Shown: in pieces, positions 57,653-64,000 of the stretch
Position numbering within the stretch: the stretch's first letter is position 1
How the letters are laid out: each line of letters opens with the position of its first letter
NCBI GenBank assembly: GCA_947494305.1
Contig: CANLUL010000001.1
Location: 930,001 to 994,000 of the forward strand
Direction of reading: 5' to 3'
Length of the DNA: 64,000 nt
From: an uncultured Sphingomonadaceae bacterium
GTDB lineage: Bacteria; Pseudomonadota; Alphaproteobacteria; Sphingomonadales; Sphingomonadaceae
The notes under the pieces: model-generated
Told to the model about the DNA's origin: nothing
Databases searched by the model: none
Seen by the model: only the letters and a program-made list of their open reading frames with translations
Made by a program: the position numbers and the translations under genes

Positions 57653-58013
57653 CCAGAGGGTCGGCCAGTCGCGGTATCATTTACGATACCGAGGAAAGTC
57701 CGGGCTCCACGATTTAAAGGTGCCAGCTAACTGCTGGCCAGGGTAACCTGAGGGACAGTGCAACAGAAAGTAGGTCGCGGCGACCTCGGTCACGCGATAT
57801 TGAAAGGGTGCGGTAAGAGCGCACCGCGGGTCTGGCGACAGATCTGGCACGGTAAACCCCACCTGGAGCAAAACCAAATAGGGGCGGCATGATGGAGAAA
57901 TCGATCCGCTGCCCGGGTTGGTTGCTAGAGCGGCGCAGCAATGCATCGCCCAGATGAATGACTGGCTATCCCATGCAAATGGGTGGACAGAACCCGGCTT
58001 ACAGACCCTCTGG
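57653..58013 (+). ncRNA. rnpB: RNase P RNA
   Basis: The catalytic RNA of RNase P, which trims tRNA 5' leaders. Conserved core blocks are present: GAGGAAAGTCCGGGCTCCA, AGGGACAGTGCAACAGAAAG, GGTAAACCCCACC, AGATGAATGACTG and ACAGAACCCGGCTTAC. The P1 helix pairs CCAGAGGGTC (57653-57662) with GACCCTCTGG (58004-58013). It is type A by layout. A T-rich stretch after P1 suggests that this helix also ends transcription. Confidence 0.96.
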
Positions 58014-58063
58014 TATTTTCTATTTCAACATTGATTAGGTCATTATCCGTGTTATCTCGTGAC

Positions 58064-59707
58064 ATGAAAAACATTATCTGTGGTTTCCTCTTTTTCGCGT
58101 GTCTCTTTGGTTTCAGTCATACTGCCGAAGCAAAATGTGCCTCAGTTAAAGGAGATCGAGGGGTCGCGCTGCTAATTGGCATCAGTGCCTATGATGACCT
58201 CAATTGGCCTGCTTTAGCCAATGCTGTGAATGACATTGATCATGTTTGTCAGGCGTTTGCCCAGGCTGGATTTGAAATACTCGATGTGCGTGATGCAAAT
58301 ATCGCTGAACTCAACAGCGCGATTGCTGCATTCTCAGCGAAAGCATCGGAGGCTGACAGTGCAGTTGTGTATTATGCTGGTCATGGTTTCGAATATAACG
58401 GAAGGAACTTCATGGTGCCGGTGGGCGCTCCGGTTTTCGCCACGAAAAGCGAGTTAGAAAGCGATTTTATTCCGTTGGAAAAGTTGCTCATGGCCGCATC
58501 GCAGGCGAAAAACTTCAATCTGTTCTTTATGGATGCATGCCGAACTCCTGACCCTGTCGTTCAGTTAAAAGATGTTCAATCTGATGATCCTGCAGGTGGC
58601 GTTTCACCCATGGGACTGTTGGAAATGACGCAGGGGGCGGTGTTCTACTCCACCGCAAAAGGCCGACCTGCGCTGGATGCTGCTCCAGTAGATTCGTTGA
58701 CCAGTCCATTTGCCAAGGCGATTGCAAGCAAACTTGCTATTCCGGGGCTTGAGCTATCCGACTATTTCAAGGTTGTGTCGCGGGAGGTGTATACCAATAC
58801 CCGGGAACTAGAATTGGGGCCGCAACAACCGTTTCATTATGGGAGCTGGTTTGAAGATATTTATCTGAACCCGCCTACGAATGACACGATCGCTGGTGCA
58901 TCAAATCAAACAGGCCAGCCAATTTCAACAATCGATATTCCCATGGACCGATTGGCAATTGAAGACGAAACTATATTGGTTGGAGAGGTCCTTAGCGATC
59001 TTAGCGTTGCCGAACTAACTTCACTTGCCAATAATGGTGATGCTCTGGCTCAATCATTTTTGGGATATATGTATCATCTTGGGGTTGGGGTTAAGCAGGA
59101 TATGGCGCTGGCACGTCAATGGTTAGAGAAATCAGCAGCGCAAAATCATCCCGCCGGGCAGACGGAACTAGCATGGTTTCTTCAAGAGAATGCGCCGGAC
59201 GAAGCAAGCCGCACGATAGAATTATACTTGCTGGCAGCCGCCCAAGGATATGCAAAAGCGCAGTCCCATCTTGGTTATGCTCTCTGGGAAGGGAAATTGG
59301 GCATCACCGATAGAAAGCGGTCAATTGAGTTATTCAACGCGGCATCTGAAGCAGGGCATCCCTATGCAACTTACGCACTGGGAATTTACGGAAAGCAGAT
59401 GAACAACTCTATGACGAGGTTACGGGTGTTGGCTGATGCCGGAAATGTTGAAGGAAACAACTGGATTTGCGAACTTCAATATCAAATGGGCAAAGCCGAC
59501 AAAGTGGCGAAGGATTGCTCACTTGCAGCGCGCGGTGGTTACGCCGGCGCACGGGCCATTTGGGCACAGCTTCATGATCGCGGCCAAGGCATTCCTAAAT
59601 CTCCCAGTGAGGCGCGATATTGGGCGAAGCTGGCGAGTAGCCAACCAGAGCTAAAATTGCGACCAGATTTAGAGCAGGGCGCAACAAACATATTATCTCG
59701 CAACTAG
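58064..59707 (+). CDS. caspase-like protein with C-terminal Sel1 repeats
   Basis: This 547-residue protein has a signal peptide (NIICGFLFFACLFGFSHTA) and then a C14 caspase fold: GVALLIGISAYDDLNWPAL, catalytic H107 in YYAGHGFEYNGRNF and C159 in FFMDACRTPDPV. From about 345 to 530 there are Sel1-type repeats (AQSFLGYMYHLGVGVKQDMA, AKAQSHLGYALWEGKLGITD). So it pairs a protease domain with a protein-interaction scaffold in the periplasm. The ATG at 58064 is taken as the start because the open frame continues upstream into rnpB; no strong ribosome site is seen. Substrate unknown. Confidence 0.85.
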   Translation: MKNIICGFLFFACLFGFSHTAEAKCASVKGDRGVALLIGISAYDDLNWPALANAVNDIDHVCQAFAQAGFEILDVRDANIAELNSAIAAFSAKASEADSAVVYYAGHGFEYNGRNFMVPVGAPVFATKSELESDFIPLEKLLMAASQAKNFNLFFMDACRTPDPVVQLKDVQSDDPAGGVSPMGLLEMTQGAVFYSTAKGRPALDAAPVDSLTSPFAKAIASKLAIPGLELSDYFKVVSREVYTNTRELELGPQQPFHYGSWFEDIYLNPPTNDTIAGASNQTGQPISTIDIPMDRLAIEDETILVGEVLSDLSVAELTSLANNGDALAQSFLGYMYHLGVGVKQDMALARQWLEKSAAQNHPAGQTELAWFLQENAPDEASRTIELYLLAAAQGYAKAQSHLGYALWEGKLGITDRKRSIELFNAASEAGHPYATYALGIYGKQMNNSMTRLRVLADAGNVEGNNWICELQYQMGKADKVAKDCSLAARGGYAGARAIWAQLHDRGQGIPKSPSEARYWAKLASSQPELKLRPDLEQGATNILSRN

Positions 59708-60361: not shown

Positions 60362-60673
60362 TTACACTTGGCCTCCCAATACAGGTTCTTGCAAAATTGG
60401 TTTGGTCAGCAGCTCCCCATTGAAGCAGAGTGCAATTGGTAATCCAATTCTGCCCTGTTGAACTTTCACAAAGCGCTTGTTTCCACTTTCGGTAAATTGG
60501 ATGTTGATAACCGGTTGCGCGGTTTGGTCATTGAACCCCATCTGTGCAGAATCAATATCCTCGGCTGTCAATCGCAGTTCGTTGTCTGGAACAAGTTCCG
60601 CCGAACAATCATGCCAGTCATCGGTATATATTGCAATCGGAGCAGCAACCAAGATAAACAGAGAAAGCATCAT
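60362..60673 (-). CDS. small protein resembling the SecD P1 head subdomain
   Basis: This 103-residue protein has a short signal-like N-terminus (LSLFILVAAPIAIY) and a domain reading PVINIQFTESGNKRFVKVQQ, then GLPIALCFNGELLTKPILQE with GGQV at the end. The pattern of a target-like beta strand, a residue run FxxxT/V and IALxxNGxxxxxPxI is that of the SecDF P1 head. It therefore looks like a free-standing periplasmic copy. It overlaps sufE by four bases and is the last gene of the minus-strand run. The role is unknown. Confidence 0.7.
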   Translation of the reverse strand: MMLSLFILVAAPIAIYTDDWHDCSAELVPDNELRLTAEDIDSAQMGFNDQTAQPVINIQFTESGNKRFVKVQQGRIGLPIALCFNGELLTKPILQEPVLGGQV

Positions 60674-61077
60674 TTATCAAACCGCTCTGCGGTCTGGCTA
60701 ATTAGAGAGATCATATTGGGAATGCCCTGTGTGCGGTTGGAGCTTAGCTGGTTTTTCAAGTCAAACGGTTGCAGCTTTTCCGCAATATCAGTTTTTAAAA
60801 TATCACCTGCGGTTTGATCTTGCACGGTCTCGAGCACTAACGCGATAATACCTTTCGTAATCGCAGCATTGCTGTCAGCCAGGAAATGCAATCGTCCGTC
60901 ATTCAATTGAGTGGGATAAACCCACACGGAAGCCGAACATCCGCGCACCAGCGTCGCATCTGTTTTCAATGCATCCGGCATATCGTCTAGGTTTTTACCG
61001 AGGTCGATCAGAAGCCGGTATCGGTCGTCGGCTTCCAAAAACTCATATTCTTCGATCAGATCATCTAACTTGCTCAT
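60670..61077 (-). CDS. sufE: SufE-family cysteine desulfurase activator
   Basis: This 135-residue protein matches SufE: C47 in LVRGCSASVWVYPTQ takes sulfur from SufS, and the DDLIEEYEFLEADDRYRLLI start is typical. It works in iron-sulphur cluster assembly in the cytoplasm. Its position downstream of the psp genes is not the usual suf operon place, so it may be read by its own promoter. The ATG at 61077 is 49 bases after the last PspB-like gene. Confidence 0.92.
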   Translation of the reverse strand: MSKLDDLIEEYEFLEADDRYRLLIDLGKNLDDMPDALKTDATLVRGCSASVWVYPTQLNDGRLHFLADSNAAITKGIIALVLETVQDQTAGDILKTDIAEKLQPFDLKNQLSSNRTQGIPNMISLISQTAERFDK

Positions 61078-61126: not shown

Positions 61127-61360
61127 CTAGAGCTCAACACCCGCTGCTATAGCTTCTAGCTTACGAATACGCTCTTTCAGGTCAGCCACTTCAATGCGCG
61201 ACGTTGCGCTTGGTGGATTATCTTCACGTAGTTGTTCCAATTCGCGCGATTTTAGTGAAATCCAATCTCGCCAACCACGCAGTGCAATTAACGACACTAC
61301 CGTCAGTCCAATCAGCGTAAAACCTGCTGTAATCAAAAACAATGTTGGTTCTTGCATCAT
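61127..61360 (-). CDS. PspB-like small membrane protein, copy 6
   Basis: This 77-residue protein has one transmembrane helix (FLITAGFTLIGLTVVSLIAL) followed by a charged coiled-coil tail with RIEVADLKERIRKLEAIAAG. The LKERIRKLEAIA segment matches the PspB C-terminal helix, but this copy ends before the acidic tail seen in the others. It is the last of six related genes behind pspC. Inner-membrane location with cytoplasmic coil is likely; function unknown. Confidence 0.75.
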   Translation of the reverse strand: MMQEPTLFLITAGFTLIGLTVVSLIALRGWRDWISLKSRELEQLREDNPPSATSRIEVADLKERIRKLEAIAAGVEL

Positions 61361-61388
61361 ATCAAGTCCTTATTCTGGGGGCGACCGG

Positions 61389-61661
61389 CTAGCGGTCTCT
61401 CAACTTTTCAATTTCGCTTTCCAAATCGCGAGCGCTTCGGTCTTCGGTGGCTATTTTTTCCAATACCTGGACACGCTCTTTCAAATATTTGACTTCATCC
61501 CGAAGACCCTCGGAATCTGAAGTCTGAGGCGCTTTTGTAACTGCTACAGAGTTGCCTTTATGGTCTTCCAAAATGCCATTTTGTGCGCGATATTTAGAGC
61601 GCATGACACGTCCAATCGTCACGATTATTATGATAGCAACAACAGCCTCTGGCCAATCCAT
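61389..61661 (-). CDS. PspB-like small membrane protein, copy 5
   Basis: This 90-residue protein begins with a transmembrane helix (EAVVAIIIIVTIGRVMRSKY). It has the linker RAQNGILEDHKGN that recalls GYPxE in copies 1 and 2, then the coil VKYLKERVQVLEKIATEDRS and the tail LESEIEKLRDR. The LxERVxVLExIATD block is the PspB signature; the EIEKLR end is like that of PspC in this operon. It is 22 bases after copy 4. Confidence 0.78.
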   Translation of the reverse strand: MDWPEAVVAIIIIVTIGRVMRSKYRAQNGILEDHKGNSVAVTKAPQTSDSEGLRDEVKYLKERVQVLEKIATEDRSARDLESEIEKLRDR

Positions 61662-61683
61662 TTCTTCTAACCTTCCTTCGCGT

Positions 61684-61941
61684 TCAGATATCTTTTAACT
61701 GGTTTATTTCGTTTTCTAGTTGTTTGGTGCTGTGGCTATCGGTGGTGATTTGTTCCAATACAGCAACACGATCTTTCAGGTATTTCATCTCCTCGCGCAT
61801 CCTTTCTGAATCCGCATCGCTTGTTGCCGGCAATTGCCCACGCATTTCGATGAGTTTGCGTTGATGCCGTGTCCAGATTGCAAACCCAGCGACAGCAAAT
61901 GCTCCAAACGGGATTAGCAGCGCAATAATTCCTTCCATCAA
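61684..61941 (-). CDS. PspB-like small membrane protein, copy 4
   Basis: This 85-residue protein has an N-terminal membrane helix (IIALLIPFGAFAVAGFAIWT), a basic RHQRKLIEMRGQ stretch and the coil MKYLKDRVAVLEQITTDSHS, then LENEINQLKDI. Sequence is clearly related to copy 5. Its ATG overlaps the stop of copy 3 by four bases, showing that these are true translated genes of one operon. Confidence 0.78.
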   Translation of the reverse strand: MMEGIIALLIPFGAFAVAGFAIWTRHQRKLIEMRGQLPATSDADSERMREEMKYLKDRVAVLEQITTDSHSTKQLENEINQLKDI

Positions 61942-62222
61942 TTCAATTCCTTTGTTTTTGATTCCTCGCGCAGGTCTTCGATTTGCTGTGACACATCAAA
62001 ACCTTTGTCCGTGACGATGCGTTCTAGTACCCGAACTCGATGTTCCAAGCGTTCTGTATGAGCGGCATATTGAGCAGATTTTTCTGCAGTTTCCTGGCCG
62101 AATGCAGTCAATTGCTTTTCTTTGAATTCCAAATTCCGTTGATGGGTTTTCATAAAGATACTGCCAACGACGGGAATGCCCACCACAATCATGAAAAAAC
62201 CCAATATGAAAAAGCCGCTCAT
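61938..62222 (-). CDS. PspB-like small membrane protein, copy 3
   Basis: This 94-residue protein has a membrane helix (FFILGFFMIVVGIPVVGSIF). A basic-polar stretch KTHQRNLEFKEKQL parallels that of copy 4. The coil RLEHRVRVLERIVTDKGFDV is followed by IEDLREESKTKELN. The RVRVLERIVTD block aligns with the rest of the array. It is 15 bases after copy 2. Confidence 0.78.
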   Translation of the reverse strand: MSGFFILGFFMIVVGIPVVGSIFMKTHQRNLEFKEKQLTAFGQETAEKSAQYAAHTERLEHRVRVLERIVTDKGFDVSQQIEDLREESKTKELN

Positions 62223-62237
62223 TTTCTCAACTCTCTC

Positions 62238-62567
62238 TCAATTCGTCCGCTTGTCCTGAAGTGCTTCGATTTCTTGCGTGAGACGATGGCTATCGTCAGT
62301 TACAATCCGTTCCACGTTGGCCAAACGATCTTTCATAGATCCAATTTCAGCCCGTAGTTCTGCATTTTCCTGGGTCAGCAACTTCACGCGTTCTACTGCT
62401 TCCTGATCGGATTTAGGATAAACCGATTGCCCCCACATTCCCTCAAGAGGGTAGCCATTTTTAATCTTCAGCCGTGTTGTATAAATCCAGCCTCCGACGG
62501 CCAATACGCCCAATACAGCTACGAGGGGGAAAACTTCCGTTAGTATGAGTATTCTTTCCGGATCCAT
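62238..62567 (-). CDS. PspB-like small membrane protein, copy 2
   Basis: This 109-residue protein has a membrane helix (VFPLVAVLGVLAVGGWIY), then LKIKNGYPLEGMWGQ, a Glu-rich coil and MKDRLANVERIVTDDSHRLT with tail QEIEALQDKRTN. The NGYPxE element is shared with copy 1 (RHGYPIE). Its ATG overlaps the stop codon of copy 1 by one base (TGATG). Confidence 0.78.
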   Translation of the reverse strand: MDPERILILTEVFPLVAVLGVLAVGGWIYTTRLKIKNGYPLEGMWGQSVYPKSDQEAVERVKLLTQENAELRAEIGSMKDRLANVERIVTDDSHRLTQEIEALQDKRTN

Positions 62568-62866
62568 CAGCTTTTCTCTCTTAGAGCTTCAATTTCATCA
62601 GCCGTGCGTTTGGCGGGATCGGTCGCAATGCGTTCGAGGACTTGAAGGCGTTCTTGGAGGCGATCAATCTTGCCAACCAACTCTTCGTTTTCGCTAGAGA
62701 GCAATTCTATCTTGCGTTGCTCTGAAGGATCCGTTTTTGAAATGATTTTTCCGTTATCATCTTCAATTGGATAGCCATGTCTGGCGCGGATCCAGTTATT
62801 GACGATGCCACCAACAATACAAACTGCGATAATGGCGATAACTGATTCTGGGCTCCCCCAATTCAT
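62567..62866 (-). CDS. PspB-like small membrane protein, copy 1
   Basis: This 99-residue protein has a membrane helix (SVIAIIAVCIVGGIVNNWIR), then ARHGYPIEDDNGK, the coil IDRLQERLQVLERIATDPAK and the tail ADEIEALREKS. Proteins with the RARHGYP element are common single-copy genes in sphingomonads. This makes copy 1 the likely ancestor of the local family. It starts 25 bases after pspC. Confidence 0.8.
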   Translation of the reverse strand: MNWGSPESVIAIIAVCIVGGIVNNWIRARHGYPIEDDNGKIISKTDPSEQRKIELLSSENEELVGKIDRLQERLQVLERIATDPAKRTADEIEALREKS

Positions 62867-62891
62867 AATGTTTCTCCCTAAAAGCTATCTT

Positions 62892-63275
62892 CTACCGAAG
62901 TTTCTCAATTTCGTTCGACAGCGAAGTATTCTTGGTTGTGTAATATAATTCCATGTCGGCGAGCTTGCGATCAATCTCGCGAAAACGCGACTTGATGTCG
63001 CGGCTCGTCCGCTGTGGTGATTGCCGGACACCTTGCCAAAACTTCAACTCCTCTGGGTCTCGGCTATAAAGTTCGATTGGTTTAGGGTCGGCAACCTTTG
63101 CGGTGATCCAATAGGCCAGTAGCGTCCATGGAAAAGCGAATGTCACGGTTGCGACTATCGCTGCCAATCGGATCCACATAACGTTGATACCGGTGTAATC
63201 TGCTATACCTGCGCAAACTCCGCTCCATTTAGCGCGTTGTTTATCAAGATAAAATTTGGTGCGGCTCGTGGACAT
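62892..63275 (-). CDS. pspC: phage shock protein C (PspC domain)
   Basis: This 127-residue protein has the PspC domain at the N-terminus (FYLDKQRAKWSGVCAGIADY, then TGINVMWIRLAAIVATVTFA with the membrane helix). It continues into a cytoplasmic helical tail (RFREIDRKLADMELYYTTKN) that ends NEIEKLR. With PspB it senses inner-membrane stress and recruits PspA. It starts two bases after pspB. Confidence 0.92.
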   Translation of the reverse strand: MSTSRTKFYLDKQRAKWSGVCAGIADYTGINVMWIRLAAIVATVTFAFPWTLLAYWITAKVADPKPIELYSRDPEELKFWQGVRQSPQRTSRDIKSRFREIDRKLADMELYYTTKNTSLSNEIEKLR

Positions 63276-63277
63276 TT

Positions 63278-63577
63278 TCAGCGCCTTTCTTTCTGGAGTT
63301 CATCAAGCCGTTCCAAAGATGGAGACGGTATTTCGGAGCGGCTCGGCAATGCGGATTGCTTGTAATCAGGATTGTCCGCAGCCATGATACGTTCGATCGT
63401 ATCCATTCGGTCATCAAGACGGCGCGCCATGTGATGCAATTCTTCCAGTAGATTTTCGTCTTCATTGGTAATCGTTGCTGCGGTTTTCCACTTCGTAACA
63501 TAGTGGAATATCAACCAAGGCAGACCGATAAATATAGTTCCCATGACGATGGGAACGATGATCAGTTCTTCCTGCAT
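63278..63577 (-). CDS. pspB: phage shock protein B
   Basis: This 99-residue protein has a membrane helix (IIVPIVMGTIFIGLPWLIFH) and the PspB cytoplasmic helix MARRLDDRMDTIERIMAADN, with PDYK after it like the HPNWR end of E. coli PspB. It extends about 25 residues beyond the usual length. Its ATG overlaps the pspA stop (TAATG), so all three psp genes are coupled. Confidence 0.9.
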   Translation of the reverse strand: MQEELIIVPIVMGTIFIGLPWLIFHYVTKWKTAATITNEDENLLEELHHMARRLDDRMDTIERIMAADNPDYKQSALPSRSEIPSPSLERLDELQKERR

Positions 63578-64000
63578 TATTTGTCACCTTTCTTCATGGC
63601 TGCCTTCATGGCTTCTAATTCTTCATCCACCTGATCACTGGATTCCAGCGCAGCGATTTGATTTTCTAATGTCTGTGGTTGGCCTTCGCCCATTGTGAGC
63701 GCATCTGCGCGGCCTTCGGCAAAATCGACCTGACGTTCTAGATATTCAAATTTTGAGAAAGCATCATGTACCTTTTCACTATTGTACATCTCTCGAATTT
63801 TATATCGGTTCTCGGCACTTTCGAGACGGTTGACCAAGCTGCTTTGGCGAGACCGCGCTTCTTGCAGTTTCTTTTGCAGTTTGGCGATATCAGCCTCATT
63901 GGCATGAAGCGTATCTTCCAAAACTTTAACTTCGGATTTTAACTGGTCAGCCATATCGGATGCTTTGCGTTTTTCCAGCAATGCCGCTTTGGCCAAATCT
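63577..64000 (-). CDS. pspA: phage shock protein A, N-terminal part outside window
   Basis: The minus-strand frame enters from the right edge and shows about 140 C-terminal residues, beginning at DLAKAALLEKRKASDMADQL. It has the long coiled coil of PspA/IM30 (LQKKLQEARSRQSSLVNRLE) and the late segment FEYLERQVDFAEGRADALTM. PspA coats and stabilises stressed inner membrane. The promoter and any pspF lie beyond the window. Confidence 0.92.
   Translation of the reverse strand, partial: DLAKAALLEKRKASDMADQLKSEVKVLEDTLHANEADIAKLQKKLQEARSRQSSLVNRLESAENRYKIREMYNSEKVHDAFSKFEYLERQVDFAEGRADALTMGEGQPQTLENQIAALESSDQVDEELEAMKAAMKKGDK

Follow-up and report, generated by a model that had tools for sequence, protein, structure and literature searches.

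We found that the phage shock protein (Psp) operon of an uncultured Sphingomonadaceae bacterium carries six small genes behind pspC, and that genes of the same family stand at this position in every psp locus of that bacterial family in our survey. The Psp system is a textbook envelope stress response, and its model has one PspB and one PspC. With moderate confidence, we favor the view that the six genes encode a lineage-wide, expanded family of single-pass inner-membrane Psp adaptors, which would pair with PspB and PspC and offer extra docking helices, similar to the tail of PspC, to PspA or to other partners. An adaptor set is the simplest reading because each small protein has such a membrane helix and tail and is encoded behind the psp promoter. 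The window, that is, the whole stretch of 64,000 nucleotides that was analyzed, comprises positions 930001-994000 of contig 1 of a 3.35-Mb genome.

Six small genes lie behind pspABC

A run of genes on the minus strand crosses the right edge of the window and consists of pspA, pspB, pspC, the six small genes and sufE. The 3' part of pspA (63577-64000) is in the window and matches PF04012 (PspA_IM30) with 43.9 bits; the start of the gene is outside. The true pspB (63278-63577) matches TIGR02976 with 90.9 bits (cut-off 51.7) and PF06667 with 86.2 bits, and pspC (62892-63275) matches TIGR02978 with 115.7 bits (cut-off 104). In translation, the C-terminal tail of PspC contains RKLADMELYYTTKNTSLSNEIEKLR, to which the small family is similar. 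A preliminary description of this DNA had stated that most psp operons have a single PspB. For true PspB our results do not contradict this, and at E 1e-3 PF06667 matches nothing in the genome but the pspB of the psp operon.

The same description had reported six consecutive small genes behind pspA-pspB-pspC, and we found them at 61127-62866 on the minus strand; the range that it gave, 61127-63577, contains all six but also takes in pspB and pspC. Starting next to pspC, small gene 1 (P0001; 62567-62866, 99 amino acids, paralogue group A1) has the juxtamembrane sequence RARHGYPIEDDNG, and small gene 2 (P0002; 62238-62567, 109 amino acids, group A2) has KIKNGYPLEGMWGQ at the corresponding place. 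Small gene 3 (P0003; 61938-62222, 94 amino acids, group B) carries TAEKSAQYAAHTERLEHRVRVLERIVTD. Next come small gene 4 (P0004; 61684-61938, 84 amino acids from its ATG, label H) and small gene 5 (61389-61661, 90 amino acids, group E). Small gene 6 (61127-61360, 77 amino acids, group C) ends in RIEVADLKERIRKLEAIAAGVEL, with neither T(D/E) nor a C-terminal extension. All are on the minus strand.

The genes are closely packed. The gap between pspC and gene 1 is 25 bases, the other gaps are 15, 22 and 28 bases, and 49 bases separate the last small gene from sufE. Overlaps of one and four bases had been proposed. With ATG starts there is an overlap of one base each for P0001/P0002 and P0003/P0004, and an overlap of four bases requires a TTG start for P0004. 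No further copy was found in their own genome: with a family profile containing the six, the next match had an E value of 0.39.

The small genes recur in several conserved groups

We looked for the PspC model TIGR02978 in 296 genomes of the order, of which 284 matched. From the better-scoring PspC rows, 40 loci were hand-picked for genus spread, and these together with the window's own make up the survey of 41 loci. A survey of gene order had been suggested as a check on the family, and it bore the family out: all 37 loci from the window's family (which we call "Sphingomonadaceae" in the wide sense, from the named relatives given below) have 1-8 family genes behind pspC, with a median of 5. 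Elsewhere in the order, the single loci from three other families had none, and one locus of another family, f8, had one copy.

A second set of 80 named loci was chosen by match to P0002. In 78 of these pspC was present in the piece, and all 78 had 3-8 copies. The genera represented include Sphingorhabdus, Sphingobium, Erythrobacter, Sphingomonas and Novosphingobium. At small gene 2, in a ranking from which very close records may be excluded, the nearest named relatives were Sphingorhabdus sp. 109, with 76% identity, and Parasphingorhabdus marina, with 75%. The genus Parasphingorhabdus is placed in the order Sphingomonadales and, by NCBI, in the family Sphingorhabdaceae.

The copies fall into groups that keep their order. 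There are two main recurring orders, A1-A2-(B)-E-C and B-(A1)-A2-(F/G)-D-C. Group C closes the set throughout the 80 named loci. It does so too wherever it occurs in the survey, except in L064, in which the start of C is unsure. In a tree of 190 rows and 105 columns (bootstrap not settled), A2 and C each formed one side of a branch with 100/100 support, and D, E and F were also single sides. Because the groups recur across genera both in the tree and in the gene orders, at least several of the duplications predate, on this sequence evidence, the split of the genera. A recent local tandem duplication was ruled out for most of the copies in the window, five of the six clustering with relatives in other genera. 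Small gene 4 grouped with small gene 5 on a long branch (84/61 support), and may be a younger duplicate of it.

The groups have been under purifying selection in the relatives. We compared 19 chosen pairs, the window genome not among them, and counted those with a synonymous rate (dS) between 0.05 and 1.5. The median ratio of nonsynonymous to synonymous rates (dN/dS) was 0.04-0.10 for groups A1 (n = 13 pairs), A2 (n = 14), B (n = 5), E (n = 19) and C (n = 15).

The family resembles both PspB and the tail of PspC

Each of the six proteins has one N-terminal hydrophobic stretch, followed by basic residues and then by a helix-like stretch with the core R-(V/L/I)-x2-(L/V)-E-x-I. The fuller motif proposed earlier, L-x2-R-(V/L/I)-x-(V/K)-(L/V)-E-x-I, holds for five copies, whereas P0002 reads M-x2-R-L-A-N-V-E-R-I. 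As had also been noticed, T(D/E) comes next in five of the six, and these five continue with a further L..EI..L-like segment.

We determined the likely topology of the family from the survey loci. These gave 174 rows, 7 of which were longer than 130 amino acids and were dropped, leaving 167. The membrane stretch was above 1.6 in hydropathy in 158 of the 167, and a second stretch was found in none. Lysine and arginine were commoner after the membrane stretch than before it in 164, placing the C-terminus inside. Thus, by hydropathy and the positive-inside rule, the family is predicted to have a single N-terminal membrane helix and a cytoplasmic C-terminus.

None of the six reached a curated PspB or PspC cut-off; the best scores were 20.1 bits for PF06667 (P0003; cut-off 25.6) and 19.9 for TIGR02976 (cut-off 51.7). 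There were nevertheless matches below the cut-offs. The best curated hit of small gene 3 was to positions 39-121 of the PspC model TIGR02978 (E 1e-6). It also matched three PspB models, with E values from 7e-4 (TIGR02976) to 5e-3, and small gene 2 matched TIGR02978 at 2e-4. Among the six, matches to TIGR02978 begin at position 39 or 64, and PF04024, the N-terminal PspC domain, had no match in any of them up to E 1. No Pfam or NCBIfam model of their own was found for the six or for 18 relatives from beyond the window's bacterial family (see below), and no model reaches its cut-off for the six. Annotation of these genes is therefore likely to be patchy.

Comparisons of the whole family gave a clearer picture. 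A hidden Markov model (HMM) of the family found residues 8-63 of Escherichia coli PspB with 27.8 bits and an E value of about 5e-7, calculated for 5000 sequences; on the same basis E. coli PspD was not listed at E 10 or better. Applied to the 41 survey loci at E 1e-3, the family HMM recovered PspB in 17 of them and PspC in 29. In profile-profile comparison with hhalign, which concerns the family and not each copy, the family aligned to PspB at E 2.1e-6 over 66 columns (membrane and cytoplasmic helix), and to PspC 41-130, from the second membrane helix to the C-terminus, at E 4.7e-7 over 82 columns. PspB and the isolated PspC tail aligned to each other at E 0.04, which is not significant.

The two sides of this likeness can be stated column by column. 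We aligned 167 family rows with 41 PspB and 40 PspC rows; the pattern used for aligning has R at 0 and E at +5 built in. Farther on, the columns of EI(E/D), which are not part of that pattern, are common to the family and PspC but not PspB (I at +19 in 58% of the family and 90% of PspC). T at +9 occurs in 78% of the family and 38% of PspC, V being present in 62% of PspC. Like PspB, the small proteins have an N-terminal membrane helix and a cytoplasmic L-x2-R-(M/L)-x2-(I/V)-E-R-(I/L), are encoded next to pspC, and are homologous by HMM. In contrast to PspB, they fall below the curated cut-offs and occur in 1-8 copies beside one true pspB. Most of them end T(D/E)...EI..L(R), whereas the PspB proteins of these loci continue with an AADNP(D/E)F-like sequence and lack the C-terminal EI..L(R) segment, which the family has in common with PspC of the same loci. 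Like the PspC tail (about positions 40-121 of TIGR02978), they have a membrane helix, then R-L-x2-(V/M)-E and, in these loci, (V/T)(S/T)...L..EI(E/D). In contrast to PspC, they are stand-alone small proteins without the PF04024 domain and the first PspC membrane segment.

Because it matches both PspB and PspC and has the EI(E/D) columns in common with PspC only, the family links PspB and the PspC tail at the level of sequence. The proposal of an expanded PspB-like family was therefore supported but incomplete, the PspC tail aligning at least as well, and ancestry from PspB only is not favored because the match to PspC is as good and longer. A PspC fused to a "divergent C-terminal PspB" has been reported (PMC11237479), and what we could consult of that report agrees with such a link.

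Controls were made from the 174 rows. Above 10 bits, the PspC-tail HMM matched 53 of the 174 real rows, none of 870 heptad-preserving shuffles, 1 of 174 reversed sequences and 1 of 174 sequences with only the tail reversed. The corresponding numbers for the PspB HMM were 75 of 174, 4 of 870, 4 of 174 and 3 of 174.

The small genes are probably transcribed with pspABC

A sigma-54 sequence, TGGCACGCCTCCTGCA, lies outside the window, 380 bases before pspA. It has 11 of the 12 consensus bases, a score reached by none of 200 shuffles of the upstream stretch. The divergent gene upstream of pspA encodes Sigma54_activat and Fis-type helix-turn-helix domains, and we read it as pspF. A sigma-54 sequence (at least 10/12) was present within 600 bases of pspA in 32 of the 36 loci of the window's family in which the start of pspA was found. 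Among 40 psp operons, 33 had one within 500 bases and 36 within 600.

Separate transcription of the six genes was considered and rejected: terminator-like matches were at the level of shuffles (6 vs 5.3), and there were none in the 25-base gap behind pspC. Sigma-70-like matches numbered 10, compared to 5.6 in shuffles (standard deviation 2.5). Since these matches somewhat exceed the shuffles and some on the minus strand are inside the small-gene set, internal promoters may exist there. We infer from the sequence that the six genes are under PspF/sigma-54 control; the run would be made as one transcript with those for PspA, PspB and PspC once PspF is released.

We also noticed that L002 (C1:985000-1003000) has a 54-amino-acid open reading frame (ORF) between the sigma-54 sequence and pspA, at about 9588-9427 on the minus strand and outside the window. 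It has one hydrophobic segment, is unrelated to the small family, and matches no Pfam family above cut-off. An ORF of at least 30 codons is present in this interval in 29 of the 32 loci of the window's family that have the sigma-54 sequence; many are about 50 codons long and alike by eye (MYNR.FF.S.LGQAA.ASI.AM...).

Relatives of the family are found away from psp

We searched 34 hand-picked genomes from other families of the order, using a profile that contains a copy from one of them (G015). Matches at 1e-3 were found in 26, and 23 of these were at 1.2e-7 or better. Two of the three weak matches (5.9e-6 to 4.2e-4) coincide with the PspC match of the same genome. In 22 of the 23 strongly matching genomes there is a copy away from psp, that is, on another contig, at a distance, or with no psp gene in the fetched neighborhood. 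Three of the 22, all f8, also carry a copy beside pspC, and one f8 genome has its sole strong copy there. The genes outside psp number one or two per genome and mostly encode 70-90 amino acids, and in several genomes they adjoin flagellin-like genes, as judged by eye. In four f8 loci (L194, L195, L196 and L202) the outside copy is directly behind an rpoD-like gene (by eye), roughly 20-35 bases away. Three f8 psp operons (L165:1194-1448, L167:1225-1461 and L168:1227-1454) have a second short PspC-matching gene followed by one copy of the small family.

Beyond the order, a profile of the outside relatives matched 21 of 199 genomes of the phylum at 1e-3: 9 from the window's family, 2 from another family of the class and 10 from other classes, which we guess to be Gammaproteobacteria. 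Of these ten, three from one genus gave only true pspB, L223 had no family match on follow-up, and the remaining six carry one such gene or two; in none of these was a psp gene detected closer than about 1.5 kb to the best copy. The two genomes from another family of the class (L206 and L207) have a small gene and, about 60 bases on, a second, weaker member (E about 5e-6). Among 114 genomes of Alphaproteobacteria, strong matches were found in just two, both from the window's family and one of them the window genome; weak matches in six others (4.9e-6 to 9.7e-4) we treat as unproven.

At E 0.01, TIGR02978 matched 10 of the 18 outside relatives and TIGR02976 matched 7, none better than 1.3e-4. 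A search for solved structures by sequence gave none below E 0.047 for the profile of outside relatives, and none up to E 0.1 for PspB or PspC.

Alternative explanations

It is possible, although we think it unlikely, that the small proteins are Psp-induced effectors that act on membrane targets of their own with little direct contact to PspA, PspB or PspC, and that a free-standing protein came first and was recruited into psp later. There are precedents in E. coli, in which PspG and PspD are small products of the PspF regulon, according to the portions available to us of two papers (PMC3068692, PMC9239133). The small genes would share this property, but PspD is not among the proteins listed by the family HMM. 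Favoring such effectors are the copies away from psp in nearly all strongly matching genomes of other families of the order. Pointing the same way, six genomes from other classes, and two from another family of the class, carry such genes and showed no psp gene near them. In addition, when 23 relatives from beyond the window's family (two being psp-located) were scored, the best match was to groups D/E for 16, B for 6 and A1 for 1, though the direction of transfer is not resolved by the tree. In contrast, likeness to both PspB and the PspC tail would require shared ancestry further back, and we saw large expansion solely in sets joined to pspC.

Slightly less probable, in our judgment, is that the small proteins are decoys or feedback regulators: detached mimics of PspB or the PspC tail would compete for PspA or PspB, silencing PspC or re-binding PspA, and so tune or end the response. 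Contacts among PspB, PspC and PspA reportedly set the on or off state, and the copies do resemble the parts of PspB and PspC that make these contacts; their place behind pspABC also suits a delayed feedback product. However, one feedback protein would suffice, titration alone hardly accounts for four to six divergent, conserved paralogues, and the group-specific juxtamembrane motifs suggest different partners.

It is very improbable that these are generic membrane-anchored coiled coils that merely happen to be in the operon and converged with PspB on a leucine zipper. In favor of this view, the stretch is short, many Pfam models give coiled coils a weak score, 2 of the 18 outside relatives match the unrelated model NF041354 up to 3.8e-6, better than any Psp model, and one tail-reversed control scored 20.7 bits with the PspB HMM, above the best real row (19.4). 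Against it, the heptad-preserving shuffles lose the signal almost wholly, and E. coli PspB itself was found. Moreover, for the single genus of another class mentioned above, the sole genome-wide match to the profile of outside relatives at E 1e-3 was, in all three genomes, the pspB beside pspA and pspC.

A defense or phage origin was also considered and rejected. PADLOC models matched none of the six proteins at E 0.01, and there were just two marginal PHROGs matches, both in one protein.

A proposed set of Psp adaptors

Several points weigh against the adaptor set that we favor. The homology motif is short, and the fold is predicted from sequence. With the family HMM, the score of E. coli PspC was not significant (6.6 bits, E 1.9), and there is no EI in its end, FTLRSRFRQL. 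The HMMs for PspB and PspC in the shuffle controls come from the very loci that supplied the family. Small gene 6, taken alone, is similar to neither PspB nor PspC (0.5-1.5 bits) and lacks the end part of the tail; its membership comes from its place, the R-E-I core and a family alignment that contains it. In the tree, A1 and B each require two changes instead of forming a single branch, and the one pair counted for group D had a dN/dS of 0.44. In an 18-kb stretch there were 11 sigma-54-like matches with up to 2 mismatches, compared to 12.2 expected by chance, so that the weight of the site before pspA comes from its place and conservation. No sigma-54 sequence of at least 10/12 was found in the 250 bases upstream of 20 outside genes (two psp-located), and sigma-54 control of these relatives is unsupported. 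Since they are away from psp and have no such site, the family is able to work without Psp, or was so in the past. The zipper proposed for E. coli PspC is at residues 77-98 and the side of the membrane on which it lies is disputed, in what we could consult of PMC3068692. The portions of the literature examined contained no binding, expression or phenotype data on the small genes.

In the accessible part of the same paper, E. coli PspB associates with itself and contacts PspC via membrane regions, and the PspC leucine zipper is required for interaction with PspA (PMC3068692). By analogy with E. coli and Yersinia, the membrane helices of the six copies would pair with one another and with those of PspB and PspC. 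Their cytoplasmic helices would be extra, slightly different copies of the docking helix in the PspC tail, and would tether PspA, or partners chosen by the group-specific juxtamembrane motifs, at the stressed membrane.

Genes of this kind have been noticed before. Ravi et al. (2024) make the same kind of observation in one clause with one accession, AOL22920.1; the accessible text gives neither copy number nor taxon with it, and does not mention paralogue groups, relatives outside psp or a mechanism (PMC11237479). The parts available to us of a Psp survey (PMC9239133) contain no statement on such extra PspB-like genes. In Zymomonas mobilis, the genes named pspA, B, C and D are up-regulated in xylose, and the small genes behind pspC go unmentioned in the sections we could consult (PMC8645129). 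Further searches on Psp in genera of the Sphingomonadales, on Zymomonas, and on PspB-like or tandem genes found nothing more on this gene set among the matches listed or in the literature within reach; earlier notice is possible, supplements and most subscription papers being beyond it.

Neighboring genes

The gene after the small set, sufE (60670-61077, minus strand), matches PF02657 with 117 bits and does not belong to the family. Directly behind it, a 103-amino-acid protein (60362-60673, minus strand) matches the SecDF P1 head subdomain with 47.8 bits; at E 0.01 it has no match to a second Pfam family. Farther away, a 574-codon ORF on the plus strand (57983-59707) has, by eye only, a start resembling that of a caspase (VALLIGISAYDDLNWPAL, followed by AGHG and DACRT) and repeats of the Sel1 type.

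Implications for Psp signaling

We found that a whole bacterial family keeps several conserved extra proteins resembling detached forms of the parts by which PspB and PspC probably signal to each other and to PspA. We raise, as a speculation that is probably wrong as it stands but deserves mention, that the Psp sensor of this family is a combinatorial array. A free-standing relative of PspB and the PspC tail would have been recruited to the psp operon and multiplied to about five specialized docking helices, and mixed oligomers with PspB and PspC would let different membrane lesions or partners switch or localize a single pool of PspA. If so, a two-protein sensor would become a multi-input sensor. 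The copies are natural separated domains for asking how PspC passes its signal to PspA and whether the paralogues split the task of sensing.

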